DNA of 64,000 nucleotides from Pegea sp. RAD2-039 (taxonomy: Eukaryota; Chordata; Thaliacea; Salpida; Salpidae). The stretch's first letter is position 1. Every line of letters begins with the position of its first letter. The translations under genes and the position numbers were made by a program. Below are positions 38,705-64,000 of the stretch, piece after piece. Location of the stretch: assembly GCA_034620365.1 (NCBI GenBank), contig JAQGEQ010000072.1:146769-210768 (forward strand). Direction: 5' to 3'. The notes under the pieces are model-generated. The model did not search any database and was not told where the DNA came from. It was given only the letters and a program-made list of their open reading frames with translations.

Positions 38705-41700
38705 TTAGCAAACAACATTTTCTTCCCAATCACAAAATCCTTTATCAGAATCAAATAATGTTCCCTCAGGACAAGTTCGTGTAAACAAAGTTCCTGAAAT
38801 TTTGAAAGTTTTCACTTAATGGTTGAACTTTGAATATTTTTATCTCACTTAAAAATCAGTTAAAAAACATTAAATTCGAAAATTAAAATCAACTAAATAA
38901 TGTTTTGTATGAAATTAAAATTATTGATAAACTAAATATTCATCCCTTTCAACAACTAGAAGCAATTTTATAAAGTTTGATAAACAACAACTAACCTGCA
39001 GCACACTGTTGGAATGAATCACATTTGTTTGGTACTTTTACTGGGTCAGTACTCTTTGGTCTACCAGTAGAATCAACACACATTGTATCTACAACATAAA
39101 GTCGTTATAAATGATCGTTGTCAAAGTAATCAAACTATTTCAACTAACCAAAGAAGTAAACAGCACGAGTGTTTGTACAACATCCGGGAACGTTATAGGG
39201 CCAATCACAACTTTTCAAAATTGGGTTGAACACAAGACCAGATGGACATGACATGGTATACAAAATACCTGATACAATAAAATTATCAAATTTACAGGCA
39301 AAAGTATTGAAAGAAGAAATGAAGCATACCTGCTCCACATTGATAGAAATGTTCACAATCGCCTCGTTTCTCAAATGGTTCAGTACTTATTGGTTTTCCA
39401 TTTCTGTCTACGCATGGTCCATCTGAAAAGTAAACGTAAAGAAATAAGTAATTGTTTAACAGGAAAAATATCAACGATTATTATTACATTTTAGCTCCTT
39501 GTAACTAACTTTTATTGTTACAACAGCTTTGATAAAGTACTTGAAATAAATGTTTTATTTAGTATATATTTATATTATTGTAATTGACTTGAATACAACA
39601 AGTATAAGAATATTTGAATATCTAATTGTAGGATTGTAATTGTAGCTGAAATTAATTGTAAGTTAAAATACTTTTAAATAACAGTCAACATCTTTTTAAA
39701 TATTATTTAACTTATTTAAAATTGTTTTTGAAACTTTAAAAGGTTAACTGTTAATTCGAGCTTACCTGGTTGACGGTTACATTCTTTGCCAACATATTCA
39801 CAACCACAAACTTCAAAAGCACATTGACATTCATTTGTATCAGGATTAAAAGCTTGACCGTTTGGACAAGGAAAAGCCACCAAATCACCTGATTAATAGA
39901 AATGTTAATTTGTCAAAGTGTCTCAATGTTCATCTTATACAGGAGTTACAAATCAATGTATAAGTGCAAAAACCTACTCACCACAAGCACATTGGTAGAA
40001 ATGCGTGCAGTTGTTTGGAATAGGGAAAGGACCTGAATTGATTGGTCGCCCACAATCATCTTGACAATCAATATCTGAACAATTTAAAAGCAAATTATTT
40101 GTTTGAAGGTTTTGAAGAAAATATTAAGTTTTTTAAAAGGTTTACTGACGGCAACCAGGGTTTGGTGTGACATAACACCCAGGAACATTAAATGGATCAT
40201 CACAAAGACCAATTTCAGGATTAAAAGCTTGTCCTTCAGGACATGACTCTGTAATCAGTTTTCCTAGAAGTCAACAAAAAATTAATTTAGATATTCAGTT
40301 GTATGATAGAATTATTTATTAGTTTACCAGCGCAGCAAATTGTATAGTGTTTGCAATCTCCAGTTCCTTGTGGTCCTCTACTGATTGGTCTTCCACAGTC
40401 ATCAACACAACAAGGATCTACAAAGTCACATTATGAATTTAGCAAAAGAAGATTGAAAAGATGAAGATTTCCGATTAAAGTTTATTAATATTTTACCGTA
40501 ATGTGGGGGACATTCATAACAGCCAGGGACATTATAAGCATGATCACAATGTCCTGTTTCAGGATTGAATGCAAGACCATCATCACATTCACTTATGATA
40601 AGTTTTCCTGCAAATAAGTATTTTTCTAAACAAAATTAACTTTGAGCTTCAATTAACCTCCACAGCATGTTTTGAAATGTTTACAGTCACCAGGAATTGC
40701 TTGTGGATCTCCACTAATTGGTCTACCACATTCATCGACACAGCAAGGATCTTTAAAACAAATTTATTTGATTTGAACTACTTTTGTAATTACTCAATCT
40801 ATGTTTACCATAATGTCCTGGACAGCTTGGTGTACAACAACCATCAACATTGTAGTCAAAATCACATAAAGCTGTAATTGGATTGTAAGCTAAGCCATCT
40901 CCACATTCCACAACTTTCTTATATCCTTCAAAGCAAAAATAATGTTTTAGTAAATTTCACAAATAAATACAATTAATTTTGATAAAATCGTTTAAATTTT
41001 AAGCTTATGTATATCATGTTACCTCCACAACATTCAATGTAAAAGCTACAATTTCCTTTGATTGGATATCTTCCAGATGGAATAGGATTACCGCAGTCAT
41101 CAAGACATTCTGGATCTAATGTAAAAATTGATAATTTTGTTCACTTCAATTCAGGTAGTAAAATAACTAACCATAACATGGTATATCACAACGGTCATCA
41201 TAACATCCTTCAACGTAATGAGCAGGAACACACACGCGAGTATCAGGATTGAAAGCATAACCTTTTGGACATTCTTTTTCAATCAATTCACCTGGACAAT
41301 TTAGAAAATCAATATTTTTGTACTTTTAAAAAACTTTATTTAGTCACAGAAAGATTATTTACCACAAGTACAGATATAATACGAGCAGCTGTCAGGTTTA
41401 GGAAATGGGCCAGTTGAAATTGGTTTTCCACATTCAGTGTGACAAGGGTCTGTTTCAAATGCACAATTGGTTTATTTTAGTTAGTCATAATTAAGATAAT
41501 TTGTAAATAAAACAACTAAAAAGTGTATTTTGATGATATTAAACAAAAGTTATTTAAAAGTAAAAAGAATTTATACCACATGTCGGAATGCAACATCCAC
41601 AGACGTTATAAGAATGATCACATTGATGTGTATCAGGATTATATGAATGATCAGGTTGACAAGACATTCGTTGAAGTTTACCTGTGGAAACAACAAAATG

Positions 41701-44700
41701 ATTTTAATACTAATATTTCAAAAACAAAAGAAGTTATGATTTCATTATTTCATAGAAATATATTTAAATGTTTTCGGTAAATGTCTCACCGCATGAGCAT
41801 TGAAGATAATCATTGCAATCTCCAGGAATAGGGAAAGTGATGTTGCTGAGAGGTCTTCCACAATCATCAACACATTCTGGATCTGAAAATTTCAACAATT
41901 TGTAATCAAATTATATTTCTTAAAAACTGAAATGGGTAATTTCAATTTGAAATATTCAACTATTACAAAGAATAAACAATAAAAGTAATTAACCGTAGCA
42001 TCCACAATGTCCTCCACAGGTAGGATAACATCCAGGAACTTCCCACATTGGTACACATTGACCTTGTTCTGGGCTGAAAGCAAAGTCAGGATTGCATTCT
42101 CTGATGACTAATTCTCCTAAAAATCAAAATATCAATAAGTTATTACTAGAATTTTCATTTCACTAAAAATTTAGTGAACAAAACGTAACCTTGTATACAT
42201 TGCTGATAATGAGTGCAATTGTCCTCAAGTGGGAATGGATCACCACAAAGTGGTTCTCCGTTAGATCCATGACAGATATCTAATAAAGGAATCAGTTTAA
42301 AATCTGATAAAACAATCTCATTTCTTTCTACTTACCAATTGGTCCACAGCCACAACCTGGAACAGTCCATTCAAAGTCACATGTACCAGTCTCAGGGTTA
42401 AAAGTTAAGCCATCAGGGCAACATTCTGTTCTCAAATGTCCTGTTGATACATCCTGTTTAATCATTTCATACTTTTTGAAAATTTACTTTTATATAGAAT
42501 TCTTTTTAACATTTTTTTAAACATCAAAGAAGCTTTACTAACCACATGAACATTGATAGAAGCAATTACAATCTCCTTGTATTTGGAATGGTTTTGTACT
42601 TATTGGTTGACCATATCTATCACAGCATGGGCCGTCTGAAAATTGTAGAAATTATCAAGTGAAATTAAGAAATAATCAAATATACGAAACATACCACAAG
42701 TATTTCCTCCACATTTAGGAACTGAGCTTAAAACTCCTGAAAATATTGAAATCGTTTGTTAAAATACAATGAAAGTTCCTTCAAAACATTTTCAACCCAC
42801 CAGCACCACATTGGAAAAACTGTCCAAGTTCTTCAAATGGATCTGTGCTTTTTGGTCGGCCATCTGATTCTACACATTTTGGATCTAGAAAACAACAAGC
42901 AAGTTATTCAGACATTTATACAATCAATTGTTTAGTAGTCTATTGTAGATAGCTAATGTTAGAAGTGTTAATAATTAGATAGTTCTTCTAACTGATCAAT
43001 ACACCTATCAAGTTTTCAAAAAGAACATTAAGACAAAATGAAACAAAGAACTACTTTTAAAAAAACTCTTTTTACACTGAAGAATTAAACATTTAAATGA
43101 TAAAATTCAAATTAACTTTAAGTTTAATTAGCTAAACAAAAGTATCGAGTTCTAATCGACAACGAGCTTTTTGAAAGCTGAACAGTTTGATAAGATATCT
43201 GAATCATATAACTAATTGTAATTACTTGATCGACAGTGTGTTGGGTCATAGCATCCAGGTACGTTGTATGGCCAATCACAAACTCCCAATTTTGGATTAA
43301 AAGCTGTTCCTTGAGCGCAAGACTTTGTGTAAAGAATTCCTAAATTTAATTGAATTTTCTCATTCATTATCTTTAACTTTGTAATGTTCAAACAAACCTG
43401 CCCCACATTGATAGAAATGGGTACAATCGCCTGGCTTCTCAAATGGTCCAGTACTCAAAGGTTTTCCATTAGAATCGTGGCATTCATCTTAATAGAAAAG
43501 CAAAAAGGTTAAAATCTAATCAGCTGAAAATACAAAGATTCAATTATTTTATCTTTTTTGATTGAAATCGAAATAACGTTTTCGAAAAACTATCCGATAA
43601 GTCAAACAAAACTTGTTTTGATCTTGAAAACTCGCACAAAAGCTCACCTGGTGGTGCATGGCATCCTCCATTGCATCCACATCCTGGTACTAAGTAGTCA
43701 GGTACACAGTGTCCACAGTCAGGATCAAAAGCTTGACCATTTGGACATTTAAATTCCAACAATTTTCCTTAAAAGTTGAAAATTGTCATCAACTTTTGTC
43801 TTTTATGATAACAACATTTTGTGAAATCTTATTTGTAACAAATTTAAACAACAATTTAATTTGCTTGTTTCAACTTACCATTACAACATTGATAGTAAGT
43901 ACAACAGTCTGATGGTTCGTCAAATGGTTCTTTGTCAATTGGTTCACCATTGCATCCAACACATTCATCATCTTCAAATAATTCAACAAAATAATTAAAC
44001 TGATTTTGCTAATTGACGGTTTTCAAAGCAGATATTATTTTGAAATATTTCTTAACAAAAATAAACTCAGTTACCGTAAGGTGATTCACAAATATTTCCA
44101 TTATCACATCCACACCCACATCCTGGAACTCTCCAAGAATCAACACAACATTCATATTCAGGACTGAATGATTCTCCTTCTTTGCATCTCATCACTTCCA
44201 AATACCCTGTATTTTACGAAAAATTACTTATAGTTTAGCTGAAATAGTTTTGTTTTTATTATTTGTAGAAACTTTTCAAAGTTTTTTGTCATAGAAAAGA
44301 AACCAAAGCAACGTTAGATAGTTCATTTTTAATTTTGTAGAAACTGAAAGTTCATTTTTTAAATGCAATGCTTAGAAATAATTAAACAAATCAGCTATTT
44401 GTAAAATCAAACTTTATTTAATTGAAGTTTTAAATATCTTACAATTCATAAAAAGCTTTTACTGAATAGAAATCTTATTTTTAAAAGTAGTTATCTGACC
44501 ATTAACACATTGGTAGTACAAGTTGCAATCTCCAGGCTTTTCAAAAGGTCCTTCACAAGTTGGGTTTCCATAGCAGTCTACACATTCTGGATCTTGTATA
44601 ACAACAGTTTAGATTTGAATTTTCACTTTATAAAATCATCTCAATCATCTAACTAACCATAGTGTGGGTCTTCAACATCACATCCACAATCTGGTACATT

Positions 44701-47700
44701 ATTAGGGCAATCACACAAACCAGTGTTTGGATTAAATACAGTTCCATCAGGACAGCAAATCTCTTGAACATTTCCTGTGAAACATTTTATTTTGATAAAT
44801 CAATTTCTCAATAAGAAATTTGTCTTCATTATGTTTACAGCAGCTTATATTATGCATCTTTAATAAGATTTGAAAATTGATTTTTATTAGAACTTATGTG
44901 ATAAAAAGTAAATTAGCGTGAAACTGAAACCTACCTGAATTGCATCTTTGGTAGTGAGTACAATTTCCGCTAATTGCAAAAGGTCCAGTTGTTTTTGGAA
45001 TACCATTGGCGAGAGTACAAGGTCCTTTAAATAATATTAAAATTTTTATCGAGTAAATACAAACTTTCTTATATTATTTATAAGAATCAGTCCCATATCT
45101 CAACATGAAGATTCTTTTAATCAATAAACTTATTTCACACCATGATGGTTTTCACCACATCCGGGAACATTGTAAGGCCAATCACAATGTCCAATAGCTG
45201 GATTGAAAGCATATCCAGGAGGACATTCAGAAGTTTTCAAGATTCCTGGTAAAATCAAGATATAAAATCTAATAAATAAATGGCTTACAACTAATTGTAA
45301 TTACCAGCAGTGCATTGGTAGAAATGACTACAATCTCCGGGCTTCTCAAATGGACCAGTACTGATTGGTCGTCCATTAGCATCATGACATTGATCTAAAG
45401 TTATTTAATATTGAGTCAAAATTGTTTTTCATTTATTGAAGTACAAAGAAAGTTTTTATATTTTTCCGATAAGATCTTCAAAACCCAGAAGAGCTAATCA
45501 CCTCTGCATCCAGGATCTTGACCTCCGCAACCAGGGACATTGTAGGGCCAGTCACAGATTCCTATGAGAGGGTTGAAAGCAGTTCCAGGTGCACAAGGCA
45601 TTGTATATAAGATTCCTTAAACAATATTAGAAATAGCTTTCAGTTACTATTTTGTTTAATCAAAAATCTTCTCAACTTAAAACTTTACTGAATTCTGCAA
45701 TTGAGTTTATTCGTATATAAAATTTTGATGACTCGTTTCAGCATAAGTTAATTTTTTATGGAAAATATTTTGTAAATTATTTGAAAGTTTAAACTTCCAC
45801 TTAATTGTTTGATAAACCCACCTGCCGCACATTGGTAGAAGTTATTGCAATCTCCGGGTTTCTCAAATGGATCACCACTAATAGGATAACCATTTTGTCC
45901 CAAACAACGATCTTCAAGTTACAAAAGATTATGTGTCAATAGAAGCTACAAAGTTTGTAATTCTAAATATTTTTTTATAATTAGATCATCTCTATTAGAA
46001 GTGTATAGATTCATAAGATTAGTACAAGTACTTTTTTAACACAATTTTGTTAAATAAATATCTTTTCCTCATTAAAAAATACTTTTAATTCATATAAATA
46101 AAAATAATATAAAACATCACTAGTAATCAAATTTATAAAAACCTGATTAATATTATAAATAATTACTTATTGTTTATATATATATTGTTTTTTAATATAT
46201 ATTTAATTATTTAACAAATTGTACAAAATCAAATATTATTACTCCATAATTTATAATTTATTTATTTTTCAAATAATTCAAAAGTTATAATCAAAAATAA
46301 TAATATTAAAAGTTTTTAATTTCTTCTAATTTTAGTTTTTAAATAACATTTTTGATAAAACATAAAACAATAAAATGAAAATATTTGATCTACTTTTGAC
46401 CATTCATTTGATGAAGCTAGATATAATTAAATAAATAAAATTTGAAACACTAACTGTTGGTTTTTGATTTTGAGTAACAATTTCCACATCCAGGAACATT
46501 GTAAGGCCAGTCACAGACTCCAAGAGCTGGATTGAAAGCAGTTCCAGGTGCACAAGGCATTGTGTACAAGATTCCTGAAACATTTTATCGTTAAACTTTT
46601 TCTATTTAAACAGTCATGAAAAGTATTCAATTTATATTTTTTTAGGAAATATAATGAACGAAAAGCATATTAAAAAGGACAACATACCTGCTCCACATTG
46701 ATAGAAATGGGTGCAGTCTCCAGGCTTCTCAAAAGGTGCTGTACTCAAAGGTCTTCCATAATGATCATGACATACATCTGTAAAGATTAATTTATAAATT
46801 GAACATTTTCAATAATTTGAAGTTATCTTAATTCACAATCAGCATTTAAAGCTAAAAAGTAAAATTATCTTCTAAAGGTAAGATTATTTTTGAATTAAAC
46901 TGATATGTCACGGTGATAAAATCAATTTTCTTTTAACTATCATCCAGCTAATCTTACCTCTTTCTACACCAGTACAATTATCTCCTGCACCACAACCTAC
47001 AACATTTTCTGGGCAATCACAGGCAGCAGTTTCAGGATTAAAAACTAAATCATCAGGACATTCACCAATCACAAGTTCTCCTATAAAAACAGAACAACAA
47101 GTTATAATTTCTATTTAAGTGAATTGATCACAAATAAACTGACCTCCTGTACATTGCTTATAATGTTTACAATCACCAGGAATTGCTTCTGGACATGAAC
47201 TAATTGGTCTTCCGTTTGAGTCTTGGCACTCTCTATCTGTTTATTCAGGTGTAAAGATAAATGATTGACATCACGTAGATAAATAGTGTTTATGTAAATA
47301 CAGAATAAAATAATTCATTATTATTGAAAAAAATCACAAGTAAAAACTGTTTAATCAATATATTAGATTAAAAAATTAAATTAAATTTTGTTTTTTTCAA
47401 TTAATTATAAAATTATTTATAAAATTAAAATTAATATTTTTTATTAATATTTATCAACTTTGGGCCTTTTTAAGCAACGACCATTTTGTGTTTTAAGCAG
47501 TATCCTATAAAATTGTTAATGTTGAATTAGCATTTCTTTACAAATGTTGCTACGAAAAGTATTTAAGAAATCTTCTCTAATTTCCAGTTTCTAGTTTTTA
47601 AATATCTTCATTTTCAATTAAAAGCAAAAATAGATGAAATTTTATTAATTTAATTTTCCAGTTTTAAAAATTCTGACTTTCAATTTAAAAAAGTAAACTT

Positions 47701-49234
47701 TTGATTTTTTATTTTATAATCGAAGTTTGCATTTACCATGAGAGCATCCACAATCTCCTCCACATCCAGGAACATTATAGGGCCAGTCGCAGACTCCTAA
47801 AGCTGGATTGAAAGCTGTTCCAGTAGGACATGACATTGTGTATAAAGTACCTTGAAAATATTATTTATTTTTAGTTGTAAATTTGGAAAAGAATTTGTCA
47901 ACGTACCACAACCACATTGATAGAAATGTTCGCAGTCTCCAGGTTTCTCAAATGGTGGTCCACTGATTGGGTTTCCATTGTGGTCAGAGCATTGGTGATC
48001 TGAAACCAAATCTTGTTTAAACTCAATTACAAAATTAATCAAGCTTCATTTTACAGTTTGAAATCAATTTAATAAATTTGAATATTATTAAATATTAAAA
48101 CCACTGATATCAATCATTCTCATAAAAGATTCTTTAAGATTTACCACATGGAGGTTTGTTTCCACCGTGACCACCTCCACTGCTTCCTCCACTGCTTCCT
48201 CCGCTGCTTCCTCCACCACATCCAGGGACATTGTAAGGCCAGTCACAGACTCCAAGAGCTGGATTGAAAGCAGTTCCAGGTGCACAAGGCATTGTGTACA
48301 AGATTCCTGAAACAATTTTTATTTCAGTATCACACAATAAATTTCAAATTGCTAATTTTCGACAAAAGCTTTGAAGAAAGTAGTTTTAAAATTAAAAAAA
48401 TAGTTGTGATTACATAGAAATAAATTTAATTTAAACTTTATAAAACCAGCTTTTAAGAAATTAATTACTTTAAATATTATTTTGTCACAATTCAAAATAT
48501 TTCTAAAACGATTCTAATTAAGTTAATAATTTTTATTTCTACCTGCACCACATTGGTAAAAATTGAAACAATCTCCTGGTTTTTCGAATGGTCCTGTACT
48601 TATAGGCTCACCGTGTGATCCTCTACATGAAGGAACTGCAATTTTTAAAACAAATTATATAAATAAAATTCAAATAGATGAAATATAATTTGTAAATTAT
48701 TAAATATATATTTGAAAACTTTACCTGATCTAGTCGATCGTTTCACTTCTTGTTCCTCTTTCTAAAAGTATAAAATGTTTTATCATTAGTTTATGAACAC
48801 TTTTTTCAATTAATCAAAAGTATTATTGGAAATAAGCTTTTGTTGTTTTTAGATTTTTATTTTTAGGAATAATTCTGAATCAGTTTTATCTTAAGTTGTA
48901 AAAATCTCACTTCTACTAATCACGATAAAATAATAAAGTAATATTAGTAGCTTGAAATAATTTAACTTTTTTATAGTAGATCATAAAAATATTGAACGAT
49001 TATTATGATTGCACTAACAGAACAAGTATTTTTAACCTAACTATTTATAAAAGGTAGAACTTTTAGGCATAAAGTCTTAAGTAGCTTAAGATAAACTAAA
49101 ATAAGTTTTATTTATCTACAAGATAAACATCAGGTTAGTTAAAACTTTTAAAATCTTACCTCAATAATAAAAGATTGAACAACGAAAATGTTGATCAGCA
49201 GAAGAGCAAAAAACACTCTTTTGTTGGATATCAT
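38705..49234 (-). CDS. 44-exon secreted protein with 21 CBM14 (peritrophin-A) domains
   Basis: Exons in transcript order: 49160-49234, 48725-48761, 48543-48635, 48145-48306, 47907-47999, 47737-47850, 47144-47236, 46958-47080, 46688-46777, 46455-46574, 45822-45911, 45502-45615, 45305-45394, 45141-45245, 44935-45024, 44658-44774, 44500-44592, 44075-44206, 43879-43971, 43648-43767, 43398-43487, 43226-43339, 42801-42884, 42695-42736, 42543-42635, 42336-42440, 42190-42279, 41994-42116, 41790-41882, 41577-41681, 41363-41449, 41172-41291, 41023-41115, 40809-40925, 40658-40750, 40497-40607, 40328-40417, 40150-40263, 39982-40074, 39766-39888, 39330-39422, 39149-39268, 38996-39088, 38705-38793. They sum to 4419 bases, in frame, 1472 residues. 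Exon 1 is a signal peptide ([15 protein letters not shown]). Exon 2 adds [12 protein letters not shown], a possible KR processing site. Exons 3-44 form 21 pairs. The first of each pair carries [16 protein letters not shown] and the second carries [17 protein letters not shown], giving the six cysteines of a CBM14 chitin-binding domain. Exon 4 ends with a glycine/serine linker. Domain 11 (exons 23-24) is degenerate. The product probably binds chitin in peritrophic matrix or cuticle. Small exon-border errors are possible. Confidence 0.9.
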
Positions 49235-49303
49235 TTTTAAATCTTACCAGAACACTATCAAGTAATTCTAATACGATTAGTGAAGATAGTGATACTGGTA
49301 TGG

Positions 49304-49313
49304 TGTATATATA
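49304..49313 (-). promoter_or_regulatory. TATA box of the left CBM14 gene
   Basis: On the minus strand the word is TATATATACA, 70-79 bases upstream of the ATG, followed at a suitable distance by CTTCACTAA, a possible initiator. The right copy has the same word at 56501-56510. Confidence 0.55.
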
Positions 49314-49840
49314 GTTTTTAGTGAAGCCACAAACAAATTTCCAAGAATTTTTAATCACATAATAAACCTATATCCGATTAAATGACAATTGTAAATACAA
49401 ATGCAATTATATTAGCCATAAATTATATTATTTGAATAATTATTTAACTTTCATGCAATTGTTTAAGAACTATAAATCTTTCTATTTTAGCTTCACTTTA
49501 TTATCAGTTCTTATCAATAATTTTATTAAATGATTTATTTTTTATTCATCTAAAATTTATCTTGTGTCAATAACCAACCAATCATAATATGAAATAAGTT
49601 CAAATATGTTCTGTTACATAATTAAATCGTTGAATCAATTTCGACCGATTTTAATTTGAACATTTTCTAGTTTGCTTCAAATGATTTATTTACTTTTTAA
49701 ATGTTTACAATGTAGTTTGATTAAATACAAATAATAATCAATGTAAATGCAAAATAAGAGTAAGTAAGTTTAGTTGTATAAATCATTTTATTTAAACTTT
49801 AATATTATTAAATTGTCACCAACTTGTTATTGGCTGATTC

Positions 49841-50310
49841 AATAAATTATGCAAAGTTCTTGCTAACAACTTCTAATTTATGAGTTGATTATTTATATGA
49901 AGTAAAAATATTCAATTTTAATTAATATTAGGTTAACGAAGGTTATTCATTTGAAAAAACGATTTATGAGTTTACTGGAAATGTACTAACATTATGAATA
50001 AGAGATTGGTTTCAACTGATACTGATATATCGAACAGAAACATTGATTTTAAATATATTTTAAAAGTAATTTGAAGGTGTGTATATCACCAAAAACTTAA
50101 TTGTTAATACCAAATTTGCGAAATGAAATTCATTAAAGTTGCTGTATTCAAAACTTCATTATTTAATGTTCCTATCAAACTATTGTTATCTAAATTTATT
50201 ACTTTTTATTGAAAATATTAAAATCTGATGAGTTTCACTTTGAGAAAACTGACGAAAAACCAGCGCTTATAACTAGAAAATTTGTTAATATTCATTTTAA
50301 CTAAAAAAAC
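49841..50310 (+). repeat. arm segment present three times, copy A
   Basis: This part of the left arm occurs again in the same orientation within the spacer (53632-54102, copy B) and inverted in the right arm (about 55504-55973, copy C). It carries no gene; it lies upstream of the CBM14 promoters. Confidence 0.85.
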
Positions 50311-50909
50311 AGGATTAAAAGACATCAGATCACCCAGAAATAAGTGCTTCTGGATTATTCATAAAATTTGGAAGTTAAAGTCAGTTTTCATGATTTGGAG
50401 TTTAAGTAAACAAAATTTGTGTCCAATATTTGTTCAACTTAATTTGAAATGTTTTACAAGTTGCATTTAGCAAAACAAACAATATTTTTGCACGTGGTTA
50501 AGTAAATATCAGAATACTTCGCTCTTCGTAAAACAAATTAAGTTATTTACTTAAAAGTGAAATCAAATTTGAACTAATTTTTTTTACTATTTCAAAAGAT
50601 GTTTAAAACTATTTTTGAAAATTAGTAGTTTAGCCAAAATTACCAATATATTAAAATCTTTCTCATTTGTTTAAATTAATTAAACTTTTTTGCTTCTATC
50701 TTTTTGAGGTTGGATGTTTATTGTATATGTTTTAACTAATTTCCAAAAATTTGAATTAATACAAATCACTTCTAAATTCTTTACAACATTTAATTGTAAG
50801 ATTTTATTCAAAAAAAAATTAAATAAACATTAAACATTTAAAAAAAAAAAATTTTTTGAACATAGCAACACAAAAAAAATTATATATTTCATTTGCATAT
50901 TAATATAAT

Positions 50910-50949
50910 ATGAAGAGAGAACCTCTCGTTAACACAAATTCTCACAAAT
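50910..50949 (-). mobile_element. LINE 3'-UTR remnant, left arm
   Basis: Read on the minus strand it gives TTTGTGAGAATTTGTGTTAA then CGAGAGGTTCTCTCTTCA, closely matching the 3' UTR of the LINE fragment at about 14763-14800. No RT coding sequence is attached. It is mirrored at 54821-54857. Confidence 0.6.
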
Positions 50950-51303
50950 GAAAATACAGGATTTGTTTGTCGTCCAGAAACTCTTGGATAACTTTTTATT
51001 CAAATCAGTTACTTCCTTGATTTCAAATAAACAATTATTTGAAGGTTGAATTTATTCTCTCAAAAGTTACATGAAGAATGATAAAGTAAATCTTATCAAT
51101 AAAAAATACATCGACATTCGTATCTTAACAATTGAAAGTCGAATTGATTTATTTGAAATTAATAAATTTCTAGGAAGCTTCAATCAGTTACAATTTTCAA
51201 ACCAGATGAATCTGTCATAACAGAAAAGTATCTTTATATTATTATATTCAAGTTGTATAAAAAGATTTTTTTTAATTATAAACATCAAATTTCATCAAAA
51301 TCT

Positions 51304-54300
51304 ATCTTTATATTTCAAATTAAGTTAGAAAATTAAGATTCAGATAATTTCTTCATCTTCTTCACTTATTTTGTACTTTTTCACTCAAAATTTATTTTTA
51401 TTAATATATTTACATTATTCCTATGTCTTATATGTTAATTATGTTATGCTGTGGTTTTTATGACTTGTCATTGTCTTTCTGCAATCATATTATTTTGTGT
51501 CCACTATAAGAGTTCTAAAAGTAAATTTCTGCAGCCATTCGTTGAACAAAATCGATTTGAAATTTTCATAGATTTAGTGACTGGATACTAATATAACGAA
51601 GAACTTGCTGCGTCAAAACTAAATTTTTGCTTCTGCTAAAAAAAAGCAAAATAATTATGTACTTGATAGAATTTGAAGTTATAATGATTAACTGTAACAT
51701 ATAGACTTATTTGGCTATGAGTTAAGATACAATTAATGAAATCAAGTTTGAATATTTACAAAGCAATTTTTTGAAAAATACAACTGACAGAAAATGAAAA
51801 AAATTAACAAGTTAAAGTACAGAGAGAAGGGCCAACTAAAAAGTATAAAGAAATATTTATTAGTTTTAAATTTGTTGCTTGTCACACTGAAGATGCTTTT
51901 CTATAAAGAGTATCTAGTTACCAAACAAATTTTCAATTTTTGTCGGTCGACTTCTTTCTAAACCCTAACTACGAAAGGGTTAGTTGACCCTAATGTTCTA
52001 TTTTGGTGTTTTTTGATCTTGGCATTGTAGCATGTTTTAATTAAATAGTATTTCTGATTTCTAATTTACATCATCTAATTGACATCCAACATACTTTTAG
52101 TTTAACCCACATATCACTCATCAAAACTTCATGTGATGGAAAAGTAAATTTTGTGACTAGAATGGAAATGCTGATGTTATTAGCAACAAATCTAAGTTAG
52201 TGAAGAGTATATAAGAGAAGAAGACACTTCTATTTAGCGGTTGATGTTTTACAGAAGATTAAATACGAAAATAAAATTTGCCATCAACAATTACAACTTC
52301 ATCAGAAAAAAATGAATTTCAGCTTAAAGATACTTTTATTGATATCATATGAGACTTACAAACTCTCAAAACATTCAGATGAAACAAACAAATTGAACTT
52401 TACAAATTGAAGTAAATAACAAATATTCTTACCATCGTGTGAATGAATTCAACTTTTTAAAGTATAAAAACCATTAATTAAAAAAGAGTTTTAAGAAAGT
52501 TGAAACTAGTTTGTTGAAATGTAATAACTCAACAGAAATCAGTGATATTTTTCGAAGACATTTTCTCTCAATATGAAGACATACTGAAAAAAAGTTCTTT
52601 CAATTTGCATTTTGAATTGATTTATCACAAACTCACCAACCAAAAGTGTTAATATCTAAACAGTTTCAATCTTTATTCCTTGATTTCTTCTCGGTGTGTC
52701 TTTTACTTCCTTTCATCATCTGTTTGATTTCAAATATCGAAGTAATGATGTCACCGTACTTGTTGAAACATCGAAACCTTTTCCACCAAACATTTTTATA
52801 TTTCTACATAAAAAAAATAACTTTTTACCCAAAAATTGTTTCAAAACAAACTTTTATCGGTTTGTAATAAACGAGAACATACAAAGCTGATCTTTAAAAA
52901 CTTCTCATCTGCTGAGTCAGATCTTTCAAGATCTTCATGTCAAACAGCAGAAGCAATCTCTTCAATCGTTTGATTAATTCAAAAAGAATTTTTTACTTTT
53001 TTAATAAACTTTAATCTTTCCAAGATCACGTTTATTAACATCAGAACAGATTCAGTTTGAAATTAATCTTTTAATGATATCCTCTGCACAAAGACATTCG
53101 AGTTTGTAACAATTGAAACGCGCGAATTTTTCGGCTCTTCAAAAGCTTTCTGAAAATGTAATAAAGATAAATTTGGGGACAAAAAGAAGATTAAAGCTGA
53201 GAAAATGTGTGAAAGATCACTACAAGGACTTCTACAGATTTGAATGAAGTTGCTGGATGCTGTGGATTATCTCAAATATCATCTGAAATTATTGATCCAA
53301 AGATGTTGGAACAGAGACAAGATTTAATCAATAATAACAAAGATCGACTTCTTTGCCTTTAATCGTAGATTGGATGCAGAAGAATCCATGGCAACGACAG
53401 ACGTCATCTGAGATTAGCAAAAGATCATCTTTACCGGAGTTCTTTTCTCTATCTAGAAAAAAAATGTAAAAAAAGAATCTGAAGATGTGAGATGTTTGAA
53501 GAAGTTTTAGAATTGAAGTGATGGAGATGAAGACTCACTTGGCATCAAGGACCTACTTCATGGACTCAACTTCCTATTTTCATCTTTAAATTATTTTTTA
53601 TTAGCGAGTAACTTTTCTATTTTTATCAGAAAATAAATTCTGCAAAGTTCTTGCTAACAACTTCTAATTTATGAGTTGATTATTTATATGAAGTAAAAAT
53701 ATTCAATTTTAATTAATATTAGGTTAACGAAGGTTAATCATTTGAAAAAACGATTTATGAGTTTACTGGAAATGTACTAACATTATGAATAAGAGATTGG
53801 TTTCAACTGATACTGATATATCGAACAGAAACATTGATTTTAAAACATATTTAAAAGTAATTTGAAGGTGTGTATATCACTAAAAACTTAATTGTTAATA
53901 CCAAATTTGCGAAATGAAATTCATTAAAGTTGCTGTATTCAAAACTTCATTATTTAATGTTCCTATCAAACTATTGTTATCTAAATTTATTACTTTTTAT
54001 TGAAAATATTAAAATCTGATGAGTTTCACTTTGAGTAAACTGACAAAAAACCAGCGCTTATAACTAGAAAATTTGTTAATATTCATTTTAACTTAAAAAA
54101 AGGAGTGATTACAAACAACGTTTTTTGATGTCTTTTAATCCTGTTTTTTTTTTAGCATCTTTTTGGTCATTTTAAACTAAAGGTAAAATTATAACAAAAA
54201 CTTGTTATTTGATGATAATTAAATGATGTAAATGATGTATTATCTAGTTACATTCTACTAATTCTAAATTATTGGATTTTTCATTTGAATAAATTATTTT

Positions 54301-54462
54301 TATTGTAATTCAATAAATTAAAATTTAATCTGTAATCTGATTTAATTCAGAATTTACAATAAATTTGATAAATGTAACAAATTTGTTTTTCAGTTTTAAC
54401 AGTTTTTTCAGAGAATGGAGATAAATTTTACTGAACACATTTTTTATGAATGTGAAATGAAA
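51304..54462. other. spacer of the large inverted duplication
   Basis: About 3.2 kb lies between the arms. The left two thirds (51304-53631) are not repeated in the window. A possible orphan exon, from a TCTACAG acceptor to a stop at 53238-53362, encodes a segment including LNEVAGCCGLSQISSEIIDP, but no partner exon or family was found. Copy B of the arm segment occupies 53632-54102. A flipped 29-base fragment of arm sequence lies at 54127-54155. The rest is AT-rich. Confidence 0.5.
53632..54102 (+). repeat. arm segment present three times, copy B (in spacer)
   Basis: It is a direct copy of 49841-50310 with a few substitutions, and so is inverted relative to the right arm. It stops in an A-run after TTCATTTTAACTT. 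The sequence that should follow (ACAGGATTAAAAGACATC) appears about 25 bases further on in reverse complement. Confidence 0.85.
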
Positions 54463-54820
54463 AGATTTTGATGAAATTTGATGTTTATAATTAAAAAAAA
54501 AATCATTTTTATACAACTTGAATATAATAATATAAAGATACTTTTCTGTTATGACAGATTCATCTGGTTTGAAAATTGTAACTGATTGAAGCTTCCTAGA
54601 AATTTATTAATTTCAAATAAATCAATTCGACTTTCAATTGTTAAGATACGAATGTCGATGTATTTTTTATTGATAAGATTTACTTTATCATTCTTCATGT
54701 AACTTTTGAGAGAATAAATTCAATCTTCAAATAATTGTTTATTTGAAATCAAGGAAGTAACTGATTTGAATAAAAAGTTATCCAAGAGTTTCTGGACGAC
54801 AAACAAATCCTGTATTTTCA

Positions 54821-54857
54821 TTTGTGAGAATTTGTGTTAACGAGAGGTTCTCTCTTC
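54821..54857 (+). mobile_element. LINE 3'-UTR remnant, right arm
   Basis: TTTGTGAGAATTTGTGTTAA followed by CGAGAGGTTCTCTCTTC matches the UTR of the LINE at 14.8 kb with a few changes and mirrors 50910-50949. Confidence 0.6.
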
Positions 54858-56500
54858 ATATTATATTAATATGCAAATGAAATATATAATTTTTTTTGTG
54901 TTGCTATGTTCAAAAAATTTTTTTTGTTTAAATACGTTTTAATGTTTACAAATGAATTTATAGATAAACATTTACATAAATTTAAACTCGACGAATTACA
55001 ACTTGAATAAAATCTTACAATTAAATGTTGTAAAGAATTTAGAAGTGATTTGTATTAATTCAAATTTTTGGAAATTAGTTAAAACATATACAATAAACAT
55101 CCAACCTCAAAAAGATAGAAGCAAAAAAGTTTAATTAATTTAAACAAATGAGAAAGATTTTAATATATTGGTAATTTTGGCTAAACTACTAATTTTCAAA
55201 AATAGTTTTAAACATCTTTTGAAATAGTAAAAAAAATTAGTTCAAATTTGATTTCACTTTTAAGTAAATAACTTAATTTGTTTTACGAAGAGCGAAGTAT
55301 TCTGATATTTACTTAACCACGTGCAAAAATATTGTTTGTTTTGCTAAATGCAACTTGTAAAACATTTCAAATTAAGTTGAACAAATATTGGACACAAATT
55401 TTGTTTACTTAAACTCCAAATCATGAAAACTGACTTTAACTTCCAAATTTTATGAATAATCCAGAAGCACTTATTTCTGGGTGATCTGATGTCTTTTAAT
55501 CCTGTTTTTTTAGTTAAAATGAATATTAACAAATTTTCTAGTTATAAGCGCTGGTTTTTTGTCAGTTTTCTCAAAGTGAAACTCATCAGAATTTAATATT
55601 TTCAATAAAAAGTAATAAATTTAGATAACAATAGTTTGATAGGAACATTAAATAATGAAGTTTTGAATACAGCAACTTTAATGAATTTCATTTCGCAAAT
55701 TTGGTATTAACAATTAAGTTTTTGGTGATATACACACCTTCAAATTACTTTTAAAATATATTTAAAAATCAATGTTTCTGTTCGATATATCAGTATCAGT
55801 TGAAACCAATCTCTTATTCATAATGTTAGTACATTTCCAGTAAACTCATAAATCGTTTTTTCAAATGAATAACCTTCGTTAACCTAATATTAATTAAAAT
55901 TGAATATTTTTACTTCATATAAATAATCAACTCATAAATTAGAAGTTGTTAGCAAGAACTTTGCATAATTTATTGAATCAGCCAATAACAAGTTGGTGAC
56001 AATTTAATAATATTAAAGTTTAAATAAAATGATTTATACAACTAAACTTACTTACTCTTATTTTGCATTTACATTGATTATTATTTGTATTTAATCAAAC
56101 TACATTGTAAACATTTAAAAAGTAAATAAATCATTTGAAGCAAACTAGAAAATGTTCAAATTAAAATCGGTCGAAATTGATTCAACGATTTAATTATGTA
56201 ACAGAACATATTTGAACTTATTTCATATTATGATTGGTTGGTTATTGACACAAGATAAATTTTAGATGAATAAAAAATAAATCATTTAATAAAATTATTG
56301 ATAAAAACTATAATAAAGTGAAGCTAAAATAGAAAGATTTATAGTTCTTAAACAATTGCATGAAAGTTAAATAATTATTCAAATAATATAATTTATAGCT
56401 AATATAATTGCATTTGTATTTACAATTGTCATTTAATCGGATATAGGTTTATTATGTGATTAAAAATTCTTGGAAATTTGTTTGTGGCTTCACTAAAAAC

Positions 56501-56510
56501 TATATATACA
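56501..56510 (+). promoter_or_regulatory. TATA box of the right CBM14 gene
   Basis: TATATATACA lies 70-79 bases before the ATG at 56580. It is identical to the left copy, so the duplicate retained its core promoter. Confidence 0.55.
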
Positions 56511-56579
56511 CCATACCAGTATCACTATCTTCACTAATCGTATTAGAATTACTTGATAGTGTTCTGGTAAGATTTAAAA

Positions 56580-59500
56580 ATGATATCCAACAAAAGAGTG
56601 TTTTTTGCTCTTCTGCTGATCAACATTTTCGTTGTTCAATCTTTTATTATTGAGGTAAGATTTTAAAAGTTTTAACTAACCTGATGTTTATCTTGTAGAT
56701 AAATAAAACTTATTTTAGTTTATCTTAAGCTACTTAAGACTTTATGCCTAAAAGTTCTACCTTTTATAAATAGTTAGGTTAAAAATACTTGTTCTGTTAG
56801 TGCAATCATAATAATCGTTCAATATTTTTATGATCTACTATAAAAAAGTTAAATTATTTCAAGCTACTAATATTACTTTATTATTTTATCGTGATTAGTA
56901 GAAGTGAGTTTTTTACAACTTAAGATAAAACTGATTCAGAATTATTCCTAAAAATAAAAATCTAAAAACAACAAAAGCTTATTTCCAATAATACTTTTGA
57001 TTAATTGAAAAAAGTGTTCATAAACTAATGATAAAACATTTTATACTTTTAGAAAGAGGAACAAGAAGTGAAACGATCGACTAGATCAGGTAAAGTTTTC
57101 AAATATATATTTAATAATTTACAAATTATATTTCATCTATTTGAATTTTATTTATATAATTTGTTTTAAAACTTGTAGTTCCTTCATGTAGAGGATCACA
57201 CGGTGAGCCTATAAGTACAGGACCATTCGAAAAACCAGGAGATTGTTTCAATTTTTACCAATGTGGTGCAGGTAGAAATAAAAATTATTAACTTAATTAG
57301 AATCGTTTTAGAAATATTTTAAATTGTGACAAAATAATATTTAAAGTAATTAATTTCTTAAAAGCTGGTTTTATAAAGTTTAAATTAAATTTATTTCTAT
57401 GTAATCACAACTATTTTTTTAATTTTAAAACTACTTTCTTCAAAGCTTTTGTCGAAAATTAGCAATTTGAAATTTATTGTGTGATACTGAAATAAAAATT
57501 GTTTCAGGAATCTTGTACACAATGCCTTGTGCACCTGGAACTGCTTTCAATCCAGCTCTTGGAGTCTGTGACTGGCCTTACAATGTCCCTGGATGTGGTG
57601 GAGGAAGCAGCGGAGGAAGCAGTGGAGGAAGCAGTGGAGGTGGTCACGGTGGAAACAAACCTCCATGTGGTAAATCTTAAAGAATCTTTTATGAGAATGA
57701 TTGATATCAGTGGTTTTAATATTTAATAATATTCAAATTTATTAAATTGATTTCAAACTGTAAAATGAAGCTTGATTAATTTTGTAATTGAGTTTAAACA
57801 AGATTTGGTTTCAGATCACCAATGCTCTGACCACAATGGAAACCCAATCAGTGGACCACCATTTGAGAAACCTGGAGACTGCGAACATTTCTATCAATGT
57901 GGTTGTGGTACGTTGACAAATTCTTTTCCAAATTTACAACTAAAAATAAATAATATTTTCAAGGTACTTTATACACAATGTCATGTCCTACTGGAACAGC
58001 TTTCAATCCAGCTTTAGGAGTCTGCGACTGGCCCTATAATGTTCCTGGATGTGGAGGAGATTGTGGATGCTCTCATGGTAAATGCAAACTTCGATTATAA
58101 AATAAAAAATCAAAAGTTTACTTTTTTAAATTGAAAGTCAGAATTTTTAAAACTGGAAAATTAAATTAATAAAATTTCATCTATTTTTGCTTTTAATTGA
58201 AAATGAAGATATTTAAAAACTAGAAACTGGAAATTAGAGAAGATTTCTTAAATACTTTTCGTAGCAACATTTGTAAAGAAATGCTAATTCAACATTAACA
58301 ATTTTATAGGATACTGCTTAAAACACAAAATGGTCGTTGCTTAAAAAGGCCCAAAGTTGATAAATATTAATAAAAAATATTAATTTTAATTTTATAAATA
58401 ATTTTATAATTAATTGAAAAAAACAAAATTTAATTTAATTTTTTAATCTAATATATTGATTAAACAGTTTTTACTTGTGATTTTTTTCAATAATAATGAA
58501 TTATTTTATTCTGTATTTACATAAACACTATTTATCTACGTGATGTCAATCATTTATCTTTACACCTGAATAAACAGATAGAGAGTGCCAAGACTCAAAC
58601 GGAAGACCAATTAGTTCATGTCCAGAAGCAATTCCTGGTGATTGTAAACATTATAAGCAATGTACAGGAGGTCAGTTTATTTGTGATCAATTCACTTAAA
58701 TAGAAATTATAACTTGTTGTTCTGTTTTTATAGGAGAACTTGTGATTGGTGAATGTCCTGATGATTTAGTTTTTAATCCTGAAACTGCTGCCTGTGATTG
58801 CCCAGAAAATGTTGTAGGTTGTGGTGCAGGAGATAATTGTACTGGTGTAGAAAGAGGTAAGATTAGCTGGATGATAGTTAAAAGAAAATTGATTTTATCA
58901 CCGTGACATATCAGTTTAATTCAAAAATAATCTTACCTTTAGAAGATAATTTTACTTTTTAGCTTTAAATGCTGATTGTGAATTAAGATAACTTCAAATT
59001 ATTGAAAATATTCAATTTATAAATTAATCTTTACAGATGTATGTCATGATCATTATGGAAGACCTTTGAGTACAGCACCTTTTGAGAAGCCTGGAGACTG
59101 CACCCATTTCTATCAATGTGGAGCAGGTATGTTCTCCTTTTTAATATACTTTTCGTTCATTATATTTCCTAAAGAAAATATAAATTGAATACTTTTCATG
59201 ACTGTTTAAATAGAAAAAGTTTAACGATAAAATGTTTCAGGAATCCTGTACACAATGCCTTGTGCACCTGGAACTGCTTTCAATCCAGCTCTTGGAGTCT
59301 GTGACTGGCCTTACAATGTTCCTGGATGTGGAAATTGTTACTCAAAATCAAAAACCAACAGTTAGTGTTTCAAATTTTATTTATTTAATTATATCTAGCT
59401 TCATCAAATGAATGGTCAAAAGTAGATCAAATATTTTCATTTTATTGTTTTATGTTTTATCAAAAATGTTATTTAAAAACTAAAATTAGAAAAAATTAAA

Positions 59501-62500
59501 AACTTTTAATATTATTATTTTTGATTCTAAATTTTGAATTAATTTGAAAAATAAATAAATTATAAATTATGGAGTAATAATATTTGATTTTGTACAATTT
59601 GTTAAATAATTAAAAATATATATTAAAAAACAATATATATATAAACAATAAGTAATTATTTATAATATTAATCAGGTTTTATAAATTTGATTACTAGTGA
59701 TGTTTTATAATTTTTATTTATATGAATTAAAAGTATTTTTAATGAGGAAAAGATATTTATTTAACAAAATTGTGTTAAAAAAGTACTTGTACTAATCTTA
59801 TGAATCTATACACTTCTAATAGAGATGATCTAATTATAAAAAAATATTTAGAATTACAAACTTTGTAGCTTCTATTGACACATAATCTTTTGTAACTTGA
59901 AGATCGTTGTTTGGGACAAAATGGTTATCCTATTAGTGGTGATCCATTTGAGAAACCCGGAGATTGCAATAACTTCTACCAATGTGCGGCAGGTGGGTTT
60001 ATCAAACAATTAAGTGGAAGTTTAAACTTTCAAATAATTTACAAAATATTTTCCATAAAAAATTAACTTATGCTGAAACGAGTCATCAGAATTTTATATA
60101 CGAATAAACTCAATTGCAGAATTCAGTAAAGTTTTAAGTTGAGAAGATTTTTGATTAAACAAAATAGTAACTGAAAGCTATTTCTAATATTGTTTAAGGA
60201 ATCTTATATACAATGCCTTGTGCACCTGGAACTGCTTTCAACCCTCTCATAGGAATCTGTGACTGGCCCTACAATGTCCCTGGTTGCGGAGGTCAAGATC
60301 CTGGATGCAGAGGTGATTAGCTCTTCTGGGTTTTGAAGATCTTATCGGAAAAATATAAAACTTTCTTTGTACTTCAATAAATGAAAAACAATTTTGACTC
60401 AATATTAAATAACTTTAGATCAATGTCATGATGCTAATGGACGACCAATCAGTACTGGTCCATTTGAGAAGCCCGGAGATTGTAGCCATTTCTACCAATG
60501 CACTGCTGGTAATTACAATTAGTTGTAAGCCATTTATTTATTAGATTTTATATCTTGATTTTACCAGGAATCTTGAAAACTTCTGAATGTCCTCCTGGAT
60601 ATGCTTTCAATCCAGCTATTGGACATTGTGATTGGCCTTACAATGTTCCCGGATGTGGTGAAAACCATCATGGTGTGAAATAAGTTTATTGATTAAAAGA
60701 ATCTTCATGTTGAGATATGGGACTGATTCTTATAAATAATATAAGAAAGTTTGTATTTACTCGATAAAAATTTGAATATTATTTAAAGGACCTTGTACTC
60801 TCGCCAATGGTATTCCAAGAACAACTGGACCTTTTGCAATTAGCGGAAATTGTACTCACTACCAAAGATGCAATTCAGGTAGGTTTCAGTTTCACGCTAA
60901 TTTACTTTTTATCACATAAGTTCTAATAAAAATCAATTTTCAAATCTTATTAAAGATGCATAAGATAAGCTGCTGTAAACATAATGAAGACAAATTTCTT
61001 ATTGAGAAATTGATTTATCAAAATAAAATGTTTCACAGGAAATGTTCAAGAGATTTGCTGTCCTGATGGAACTGTATTTAATCCAAACACTGGTTTGTGT
61101 GATTGCCCTAATAATGTACCAGATTGTGGATGTGATGTTGAAGACCCACACTATGGTTAGTTAGATGATTGAGATGATTTTATAAAGTGAAAATTCAAAT
61201 CTAAACTGTTGTTATACAAGATCCAGAATGTGTAGACTGCTATGGAAACCCAACTTGTGAAGGACCTTTTGAAAAGCCTGGAGATTGCAACTTGTACTAC
61301 CAATGTGTTAATGGTCAGATAACTACTTTTAAAAATAAGATTTCTATTCAGTAAAAGCTTTTTATGAATTGTAAGATATTTAAAACTTCAATTAAATAAA
61401 GTTTGATTTTACAAATAGCTGATTTGTTTAATTATTTCTAAGCATTGCATTTAAAAAATGAACTTTTAGTTTCTACAAAATTAAAAATGAACTATCTAAC
61501 GTTGCTTTGGTTTCTTTTCTATGACAAAAAACTTTGAAAAGTTTCTACAAATAATAAAAACAAAACTATTTCAGCTGAACTATAAGTAATTTTTCGTAAA
61601 ATACAGGGTACTTGGAAGTGATGAGATGCAAAGAAGGAGAATCATTCAGTCCTGAATATGAATGTTGTGTTGATTCTTGGAGAGTTCCAGGATGTGGGTG
61701 TGGATGTGATAATGGAAATATTTGTGAATCACCTTACGGTAACTGAGTTTATTTTTGTTAAGAAATATTTCAAAATAATATTTGCTTTGAAAACCGTCAA
61801 TTAGCAAAATCGGTTTAATTATTTTGTTGAATTATTTGAAGATGATGAATGTGTTGGATGCAATGGTGAACCAATTGACAAAGAACCATTTGACGAACCA
61901 TCAGACTGTTGTACTTACTATCAATGTTGTAATGGTAAGTTGAAACAAGCAAATTAAATTGTTGTTTAAATTTGTTACAAATAAGATTTCACAAAATGTT
62001 GTTATCATAAAAGACAAAAGTTGATGACAATTTTCAACTTTTAAGGAAAATTGTTGGAATTTAAATGTCCAAATGGTCAAGCTTTTGATCCTGACTGTGG
62101 ACACTGTGTACCTGACTACTTAGTACCAGGATGTGGATGCAATGGAGGATGCCATGCACCACCAGGTGAGCTTTTGTGCGAGTTTTCAAGATCAAAACAA
62201 GTTTTGTTTGACTTATCGGATAGTTTTTCGAAAACGTTATTTCGATTTCAATCAAAAAAGATAAAATAATTGAATCTTTGTAATTTCAGCTGATTAGATT
62301 TTAACCTTTTTGCTTTTCTATTAAGATGAATGCCACGATTCTAATGGAAAACCTTTGAGTACTGGACCATTTGAGAAGCCAGGCGATTGTACCCATTTCT
62401 ATCAATGTGGGGCAGGTTTGTTTGAACATTACAAAGTTAAATATAATGAATGAGAAAATTCAATTAAATTTAGGAATTCTTTACACAAAGTCTTGCGCTC

Positions 62501-64000
62501 AAGGAACAGCTTTTAATCCAAAATTGGGAGTTTGTGATTGGCCATACAACGTACCTGGATGCTATGACCCAACACACTGTCGATCAAGTAATTACAATTA
62601 GTTCTATGATTCAGATATCTTATCAAACTGTTCAGCTTTCAAAAAGCTCGTTGTCGATTAGAACTCGATACTTTTGTTTAGCTAATTAAACTTAAAGTTA
62701 ATTTGAATTTTATCATTTAAATGTTTAATTCTTCAGTGTAAAAAGAGTTTTTTTAAAAGTAGTTCTTTGTTTCATTTTGTCTTAATGTTCTTTTTGAAAA
62801 CTTGATAGGTGTATTGATCAGTTAGAAGAACTATCTAATTATTAACACTTCTAACATTAGCTATCTACAATAGACTACTAAACAATTGATTGTATAAATG
62901 TCTGAATAACTTGCTTGTTGTTTTCTAGATCCAAAATGTGTAGAATCAGATGGCCGACCAAAAAGCACAGATCCATTTGAAGAACTTGGACAGTTTTTCC
63001 AATGTGGTGCTGGTGGGTTGAAAATGTTTTGAAGAAACTTTCATTGTATTTTAACAAACGATTTCTATATTTTCAGGAGTTTTAAGCTCAGTTCCTAAAT
63101 GTGGAGGAAATACTTGTGGTATGTTTCGTATATTTGATTATTTCTTAATTTCACTTGATAATTTCTACAATTTTCAGACGGCCCATGCTGTGATAGATAT
63201 GGTCAACCAATAAGTACAAAACCATTCCAAATACAAGGAGATTGTAATTGCTTCTATCAATGTTCATGTGGTTAGTAAAGCTTCTTTGATGTTTAAAAAA
63301 ATATTAAAAAGAATTCTATATAAAAGTAAATTTTCAAAAAGTATGAAATGATTAAACAGGATGTATCAACAGGACATTTGAGAACAGAATGTTGCCCTGA
63401 TGGCTTAACTTTTAACCCTGAGACTGGTACATGTGACTTTGAATGGACTGTTCCAGGTTGTGGCTGTGGACCAATTGGTAAGTAGAAAGAAATGAGATTG
63501 TTTTATCAGATTTTAAACTGTATCCTTTATTAGATATCTGTCATGGATCTAACGGAGAACCACTTTGTGGTGATCCATTCCCACTTGAAGACAATTGCAC
63601 TCATTATCAGCAATGTATACAAGGTTACGTTTTGTTCACTAAATTTTTAGTGAAATGAAAATTCTAGTAATAACTTATTGATATTTTGATTTTTAGGAGA
63701 ATTAGTCATCAGAGAATGCAATCCTGACTTTGCTTTCAGCCCAGAACAAGGTCAATGTGTACCAATGTGGGAAGTTCCTGGATGTTATCCTACCTGTGGT
63801 GGACATTGTGGATGCTACGGTTAATTACTTTTATTGTTTATTCTTTGTAATAGTTGAATATTTCAAATTGAAATTACCCATTTCAGTTTTCAAGAAATAT
63901 AATTTGATTACAAATTGTTGAAATTTTCAGATCCAGAATGTGTTGATGATTGTGGAAGACCTCTCAGCAACATCACTTTCCCTATTCCTGGAGATTGCAA
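56580..64000 (+). CDS. second, divergent copy of the CBM14 gene, cut by window end
   Basis: Exons 1-28: 56580-56654, 57053-57089, 57179-57271, 57508-57669, 57815-57907, 57964-58077, 58578-58670, 58734-58856, 59037-59126, 59241-59360, 59903-59992, 60199-60312, 60419-60508, 60568-60672, 60789-60878, 61039-61155, 61221-61313, 61607-61738, 61842-61934, 62046-62165, 62326-62415, 62474-62587, 62929-63012, 63077-63118, 63178-63270, 63373-63477, 63534-63623, 63697-63819; exon 29 starts at 63931 and is truncated. Every splice site and frame seen in the left copy is intact here, so there is no sign of decay. It encodes the signal peptide, the exon-2 linker, CBM14-type domains 1 to 13 (domain 11 degenerate) and part of domain 14. 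The one coding difference I noticed is synonymous (GGT here, GGA in the left copy, exon 28). Transcription is divergent from the left copy, with about 7.3 kb between the two ATGs. It could be a functional paralog or the other haplotype placed in inverted orientation. Confidence 0.85.

Follow-up and report, generated by a model that had tools for sequence, protein, structure and literature searches.

The mirrored gene pair

The window analyzed here is a stretch of 64,000 nucleotides from the salp Pegea sp. RAD2-039 (assembly GCA_034620365.1). It covers positions 146769-210768, the last 64000 bases, of contig JAQGEQ010000072.1, which is 210768 bases long and is referred to as C123. Its right-hand part carries two divergent copies of a giant gene for a protein of many CBM14 chitin-binding domains, set in the arms of a long inverted repeat. 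When the window was compared with itself (BLAST), positions 41813-51333 matched 64000-54439 in inverted orientation over 9574 columns with 98.85% identity, and this mirror match of the arms is beyond chance. The features concerned are as follows.

41813..51333, minus (gene strand): left arm, the part of copy C mirrored within the contig; inverted match to 54439-64000, 98.85%
54439..64000, plus: right arm (copy D), truncated where the contig stops; from the inverted self-match
37031..53633, minus: copy C, whole extent of the duplicated unit; set by three direct matches, 98.3-99.1%, with C123 33077-50055 (copy B)
38705..49234, minus: giant CBM14 gene model of copy C, complete; 44 exons, 1472 amino acids, 185 cysteines, 20 CBM_14 stretches
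49160..49234, minus: exon 1, 25 residues that include the start codon and resemble a signal peptide; frame and GT donor kept in a paralogue on contig C189
48725..48761, minus: exon 2 of the model, short 12-residue stretch ahead of the first CBM14 domain
49240..49314, minus: core-promoter-like stretch with TATATATA (49313-49306, TATA); no difference in the C189 paralogue, both flanks differing in places
56580..64000, plus: copy D gene, start codon at 56580; exons 1-28 complete, the 29th cut by the contig end
36759..37625, unstranded: dispersed 867-base element straddling the unit's outer limit, on the 3' side of the gene; further copy at C123 83000-83860, 97%

An earlier note on this DNA had described a near-mirror of more than 9 kb per side around a spacer of ~3.2 kb, with a nearly constant pairing sum over ~8.7 kb. 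Both descriptions hold: the arms are separated by 3105 bases, and at the substitution sites from 41922 to 50822 the pairing sum stays at 105813-105815, after which it jumps because of a 42-base indel. Global alignment of the C and D arms yielded 54 substitutions, of which 30 are transitions and 24 are transversions, along with 14 indels; a complex spot at 50812-50843 accounts for 10 of the 54 substitutions and the inner tip beyond 51260 for 7.

The region from 41814 to 64000, which had been taken as the extent of the duplication, is indeed mirrored, but its left limit had to be abandoned. The right arm stops at 64000 because C123 ends there, and the stopping of the assembler inside the repeat is the sole reason for that end. 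The left limit at 41813/41814 is the mirror image of this cut and marks no boundary of the duplicated unit, which according to the comparison with another copy on the same contig extends outward to window position 37031. The unit thus measures ~16.6 kb, comprising the gene and ~4.4 kb upstream of it, and the true arm length is at least 9.56 kb, the right arm being cut. In the assembly, the inverted, highly identical arms lie on one molecule.

The gene of copy C runs on the minus strand from a start codon at 49234 to a stop at 38705. It was modeled from the DNA letters only, with a small dynamic-programming model and with the C189 paralogue as a reference; near the 3' end, two exons that had escaped the automatic model were added or extended by hand. 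A signal-peptide-like exon and a short second exon are followed by 42 exons, a pair of which makes up one CBM14 domain; one of the domains is degenerate. Intron 1 is in phase 0 and introns 2-43 (42 introns) are in phase 1. The Pfam profile PF01607 (CBM_14) matched the protein in 20 stretches (E 1e-202; 656.8 bits compared to a cut-off of 22.1), and in the PDB one of its domains matched tachycitin as well as a chitin-binding beak protein and the chitin-binding domains of chitinases. The protein is probably secreted, given its signal-peptide-like N terminus as judged by eye, and the stretch 49240-49314 is a candidate core promoter.

In copy D, 928 codons were checked, and neither a stop codon nor a broken splice site was found. 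The right arm contains 28 complete exons (2 five-prime exons and 26 CBM14 half-domain exons) in addition to the promoter-like stretch. The divergent pair of near-identical CBM14 genes reported before is thereby borne out, with a complete gene on the left and one starting on the opposite strand at 56580 on the right, as is the count of at least 28 full exons plus promoter within the mirrored part. No tRNA (ARAGORN, bacterial code) and no Rfam match were found in the window.

Further copies and the make-up of the spacer

The genome search covered 105.7 Mb in 387 contigs; since 39 of 114 candidates were scored, the number of copies obtained is a lower bound. Self-comparison of the joined contig revealed four copies of the unit on C123, designated A to D, and with a fifth on contig C147 the assembly contains at least five distinct near-identical copies.

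C123 1 to ~12.3 kb, plus: copy A, from self-comparison of C123
C123 29.3-50.1 kb, minus: copy B, from the same comparison
C123 183.8-200.4 kb (window 37031-53633), minus: copy C, likewise
C123 201.2-210.8 kb (window 54439-64000), plus: copy D, likewise
End of contig C147: copy E, the fifth near-identical copy, 99%
C189: two more distant copies, starts 20370 bases apart, 89%
Inside C258: more distant copy, 72-84%
C197, C191, C194, C112: partial copies, 84-96%

Copies C and D stand head to head with 3.1 kb between them. A and B, at the other end of C123, stand tail to tail with ~17 kb between them, and their spacer differs from that of C and D. Additionally, short matches to a larger CBM14 group were found on C100.

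Eight contig ends, belonging to seven contigs, lie in or within ~2.5 kb of copies (both ends of C123 and one end each of C147, C189, C191, C197, C112, and C194), compared to about one expected by chance for a family size of ~150 kb, which is a rough figure. Such a gathering of contig ends at copies of one gene is expected where an assembly breaks at repeats. The copies on C258 and C100 are located away from contig ends.

Two ways of connecting the contig ends were considered and rejected. For a circular or tandem closure of C123, the end of D and the start of A share 2.6 kb with 21/2629 substitutions, and the pair does not stand out, the corresponding numbers being 19 for A-B, 21 for A-C, and 24 for A-E. 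An overlap of D with the end of C147 was dismissed on the basis of 35/6179 substitutions, which mark the two as separate sequences.

Some observations on the wider family are added here. On C189, related CBM14 units at ~98.6-110 kb and 119.0-128.9 kb have matching exons that lie exactly 20370 bases apart and score the same or almost the same; the two are probably halves of a near-perfect tandem duplication of 20 kb, which extends to the end of the contig. Similarly, C100 carries many CBM14 exons in both orientations at ~207-380 kb, several of them with identical scores, which probably represent another amplified cluster. Shorter versions of the gene without the arm positions ~4774-6404 were found at C197 4742-8111, C191 171655-173515, and C112 1065-2284. 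In all three, the two matches flanking the gap overlap by ~100 bases, which is the pattern that crossing-over between similar exons would leave; phase-1 exons would allow the frame to be retained in such an event. Arrays of 13-base units of the TGACCTTGGACAG type lie beside the 3' edge of the gene (window 34594-35786 and 36257-36611), and related 13-base arrays adjoin copies A, B, and E and also occur on several other contigs.

The spacer between C and D is composed of three parts, all unstranded:

51334..53633: part 1, in which copy C continues upstream; shared by copy B at C123 47756-50055, 99%
53632..54104: part 2, extra copy of the gene-upstream segment 49841-50314, 97.9% to its source and to the same segment of B and D
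54105..54438: part 3, ~335 bases, of which 54161-54399 is 70% like C189:110051-110293

The C189 segment resembling part 3 lies upstream of the C189 paralogue; further relatives of this part lie at C189:95195-95437 and, over 114 bases with 74% identity, on C26. Neither the 473-base piece (part 2) nor the 335-base piece follows the unit in copy B, and D, followed inward from 54439, does not continue into the upstream sequence common to C and B. As the 473-base piece is only 97.9% like its source, it is older than the split of the arms or their last homogenization.

Differences among the copies and origin of the arrangement

Codons were compared in the arm part of copies B, C, D, and E, with A left out, over 890 codons (fewer for E), corresponding to ~560 synonymous and ~2110 nonsynonymous sites. 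Synonymous and nonsynonymous differences numbered 5/1 for C-D, 8/0 for C-B, 5/1 for C-E, 9/1 for D-B, 4/0 for D-E, and 9/1 for B-E. The synonymous excess was tested by binomial tests (p = 0.002 for C-D, 4e-6 for C-B, and 6e-6 for D-B); here and below, the statistical tests treat sites as independent. Between C and D, 6/2743 sites (0.22%) differ in exons, 24/4080 (0.59%) in introns, and 19/2658 upstream (exon versus intron, p = 0.025). The differences avoid amino acid changes and are therefore real variants and not random sequencing or assembly errors. The coding parts compared are open in B, C, D, and E, and the codon patterns mark these sequences, be they copies or alleles, as real and under constraint.

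Copy E, analyzed codon by codon, has 0 stops and 259 gap positions. Its apparent state as a broken gene, with 19 stops and lost splice sites, was rejected as an artifact of 5' exons absent at the contig end and of out-of-frame joining. In the stretch 47313-47813, copy B (C123 43363-43470) lacks ~200 bases and differs at 53/287 aligned sites, mainly in an intron; C, D, and E are without difference there.

By distance, C and D are the closest of the copies compared (28/6185 sites), followed by D-E (35/6179), C-E (46/6181), and C-B (94/5944). Divergence between C and E is uneven, with 46/6181 (0.74%) in the 5' part and 64/2936 (2.18%) in the compared 3' part (Fisher p = 2e-8), whereas the control C-B is even (94/5944 and 68/4771, p = 0.53). 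Copy E thus appears as a clear mosaic, part of which could be imitated by haplotype switches in the assembly. Shared informative sites give a different picture: of 19 such sites, D goes with E at 12, with C at 2, and with B at 5. The 12 fall among the first 15 sites (41922-46323), and at the last four C goes with E (run p = 0.0015). Between C and D, a stretch of 1689 bases is without difference (permutation p = 0.026, chosen after looking); within it, C and B differ at 67/1475 aligned sites, 53 of them where B is rearranged. The other inverted pair is likewise close within itself, with A-B at 28/4788 and C-B at 68/4771 in the 3' part (p = 3e-5). The sequence patterns make exchange by gene conversion among the copies of the family well supported, and mosaic copies are a feature of multigene families in concerted evolution. 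The earlier note had proposed that conversion keeps the two arms alike; this stands for the family, on the mosaic structure of E and its flat control, and is only suggested for arms C and D by the 1689-base stretch. An exchange running mainly within inverted pairs is possible.

The presence of allelic sequence was explored with three probes from the flanks of the copies:

Window 24200-30100 (5.9 kb)
C123 50100-56100 (6.0 kb)
C123 12400-20000 (7.6 kb)

Each probe found itself and no second long near-identical copy elsewhere in the assembly, the longest other match at ≥95% being 1.16 kb at 96% on C52. With no allelic duplicates for 3 of the 3 probes, the assembly looks haploid there. Furthermore, C147 as an allele of the C or the A/B locus was unsupported: the left-flank probe of C gave one block of 607 bases at 86% on C147, and neither the A-B spacer probe nor the probe taken upstream of B lists anything on that contig. 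The 86% block (window 28057-28663 and C147:108930-109496) lies in the same orientation in the outer flanks of C and E and may be left over from a duplication that was larger and took place earlier.

We read the locus as a real head-to-head pair of near-identical copies of a giant, probably secreted chitin-binding gene, which is a piece of a multicopy set in both orientations, and assign this a probability of about two in three. Several observations weigh against it. C123 terminates on either side in an inverted copy, a pattern also expected of systematic mis-joining at repeats. The grouping of D with E, and not with C, at 12 of the 19 informative sites means that D need not be the direct mirror copy of C and that its true place might be at a different locus. 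The stretch in which C and D agree throughout is only slightly out of the ordinary (post hoc p = 0.026), and the pattern switches are non-significant (p = 0.079). In the 2.6 kb comparable with all copies, A differs from C at 21/2629 sites, from D at 21/2629, and from B at 19/2629. D could be the second allele of the C locus, or could stem from a different locus, for instance the one on C147, and have been joined in inverted order at a repeat. Besides the sites shared with E, this is consistent with D ending at a contig end while the other contig end has the same kind of terminal inverted copy, and with the many contigs that break in this gene family; false palindromes arising from scaffolding errors are a known problem, of which the part of a study of parthenogenetic animals consulted here warns (PMC7953838). 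Yet neither a fold-back nor an allele join gives a reason for the older 473-base and 335-base pieces in the spacer, and an allele join would have to sit at this rearranged piece by chance. D, going inward, is also without the upstream sequence of C and B, unlike an allele of C, and the flanking probes revealed no allelic duplicates. We regard a mis-join as unlikely. A single-read fold-back, which would give a perfect mirror about one point with no or a tiny spacer, had already been doubted, and the composite spacer together with substitutions avoiding amino acid changes bears out that doubt. The accompanying worry that two haplotypes were joined stands in part, weakened by the make-up of the spacer and by the result of the probes.

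If the head-to-head pair is real, its history may have been simple. An inverted duplication that is merely young, with 0.57% divergence needing no conversion between the arms, is a possible account, although not the one we prefer: the differences are spread over most of the arm, and the tests of the single difference-free stretch and of the pattern switches fit it as well, but copying C into D once would not by itself yield the mosaic E, nor the grouping of D with E at 12 of the first 15 sites followed by C with E at the last four. Replication-based template switching, in which an inverted duplication arises with short templated inserts at its junction, is suggested by the 473-base copy of a segment 3.3 kb away and by a 25-base inverted piece shortly past its end. 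The 473-base piece is ~2% off its source, more than the arms differ, so that it does not belong to the same event unless the arms were homogenized later, and we consider this origin somewhat improbable.

For the real head-to-head pair, we propose the following course of events. The ~16.6-kb unit was duplicated several times, giving copies in both orientations, and the inverted and direct arrangement of these copies would aid gene conversion. Secreted proteins with many CBM14 domains in tandem bind chitin, and in linings and shells, for example, they may cross-link it. Extra gene copies would provide a higher dose of a matrix protein whose ~20 CBM14 domains would cross-link chitin fibers, and the phase-1 half-domain exons could permit in-frame loss or gain of domains by unequal exchange.

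Neighboring features and known systems

A second, shorter inverted repeat was found elsewhere in the window (5315-7149 and 17519-19353), with arms of 1835 bases that are 98.5% identical without gaps; the arm 17519-19353 ends directly before a 19-base satellite array (~19358-23689). A G+C-rich island at 30-38 kb contains an open frame of 806 codons (30953-33373) with 11-residue repeats of the GPQDPQLWRAA type and long glutamine runs, for which no Pfam match was found. A homeodomain gene and a phosphorylase-family gene were also recognized, in keeping with an animal source, and a TNF-like reading of one open frame, made by eye, was discarded as it had no Pfam support. A search of the assembly for COX1 gave 0 matches, and the mitochondrial contig is apparently absent. 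Chitin_bind_4 (PF00379), a family common in arthropods, also gave 0 matches, although its control gave none either, and a rotifer spliced-leader sequence had 0 matches with as many as 2 mismatches allowed.

Among the literature matches listed, no account of such a CBM14 locus was found, which is weak evidence. We regard the locus as illustrating well a type of gene amplification that is already known, and not as a new kind of system. Should the arrangement be confirmed, it would provide a compact test case for how inverted copies stay alike when the gene is large and under selection and does not lie on one of the well-studied sex chromosomes. It would also suggest a simple genetic route, consisting of phase-1 half-domain exons and near-identical neighbors, by which the domain number of a chitin-binding matrix protein can change. 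Such loci are under-counted because assemblies break there.

With other multidomain proteins of CBM14 (peritrophin-A, tachycitin-like) the protein of copy C shares its PF01607 domains, present in 20 stretches; here, each domain is split over two phase-1 exons, which results in 44 exons. The nearest geometry that we found described is that of the W chromosome of Salix purpurea. The part of that report consulted here (PMC7023750) gives two palindromes, W.P1 and W.P2, within ~200 kb, one of them with a central spacer of 2.6 kb, and a 20-kb sequence that is >99% alike on average over the four arms, with evidence of gene conversion among them. C123 likewise has two inverted pairs and four arms on ~200 kb. 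The willow palindromes lie on a plant sex chromosome and have read-depth support, whereas C123 is an assembled contig; moreover, its shared unit is one giant structural gene, and divergence between its arms amounts to 0.5-2%.

Mammalian X and Y palindromes, as far as the sources at hand describe them, also combine near-identical inverted arms, multicopy (ampliconic) genes, and gene conversion. Their arms are >99% (X) and >99.9% (human Y) identical, compared to 98.85% over at least 9.5 kb for C-D. A bolder view of C123 is that A-B and C-D are two palindromes of opposite geometry, each pair being kept alike by arm-arm conversion while the pairs drift apart. C123 would then parallel, in an animal and with a giant structural-protein gene at the center, the palindromes of the willow W and of mammalian sex chromosomes, and it might itself come from a sex chromosome or from one with little recombination; we hold this view to be distinctly doubtful. 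The palindromes of Adineta vaga and Folsomia candida, in the portion of PMC7953838 available, resemble C123 in having inverted gene-bearing blocks on one contig, but they consist of collinear blocks of genes, whereas C123 repeats one gene unit.

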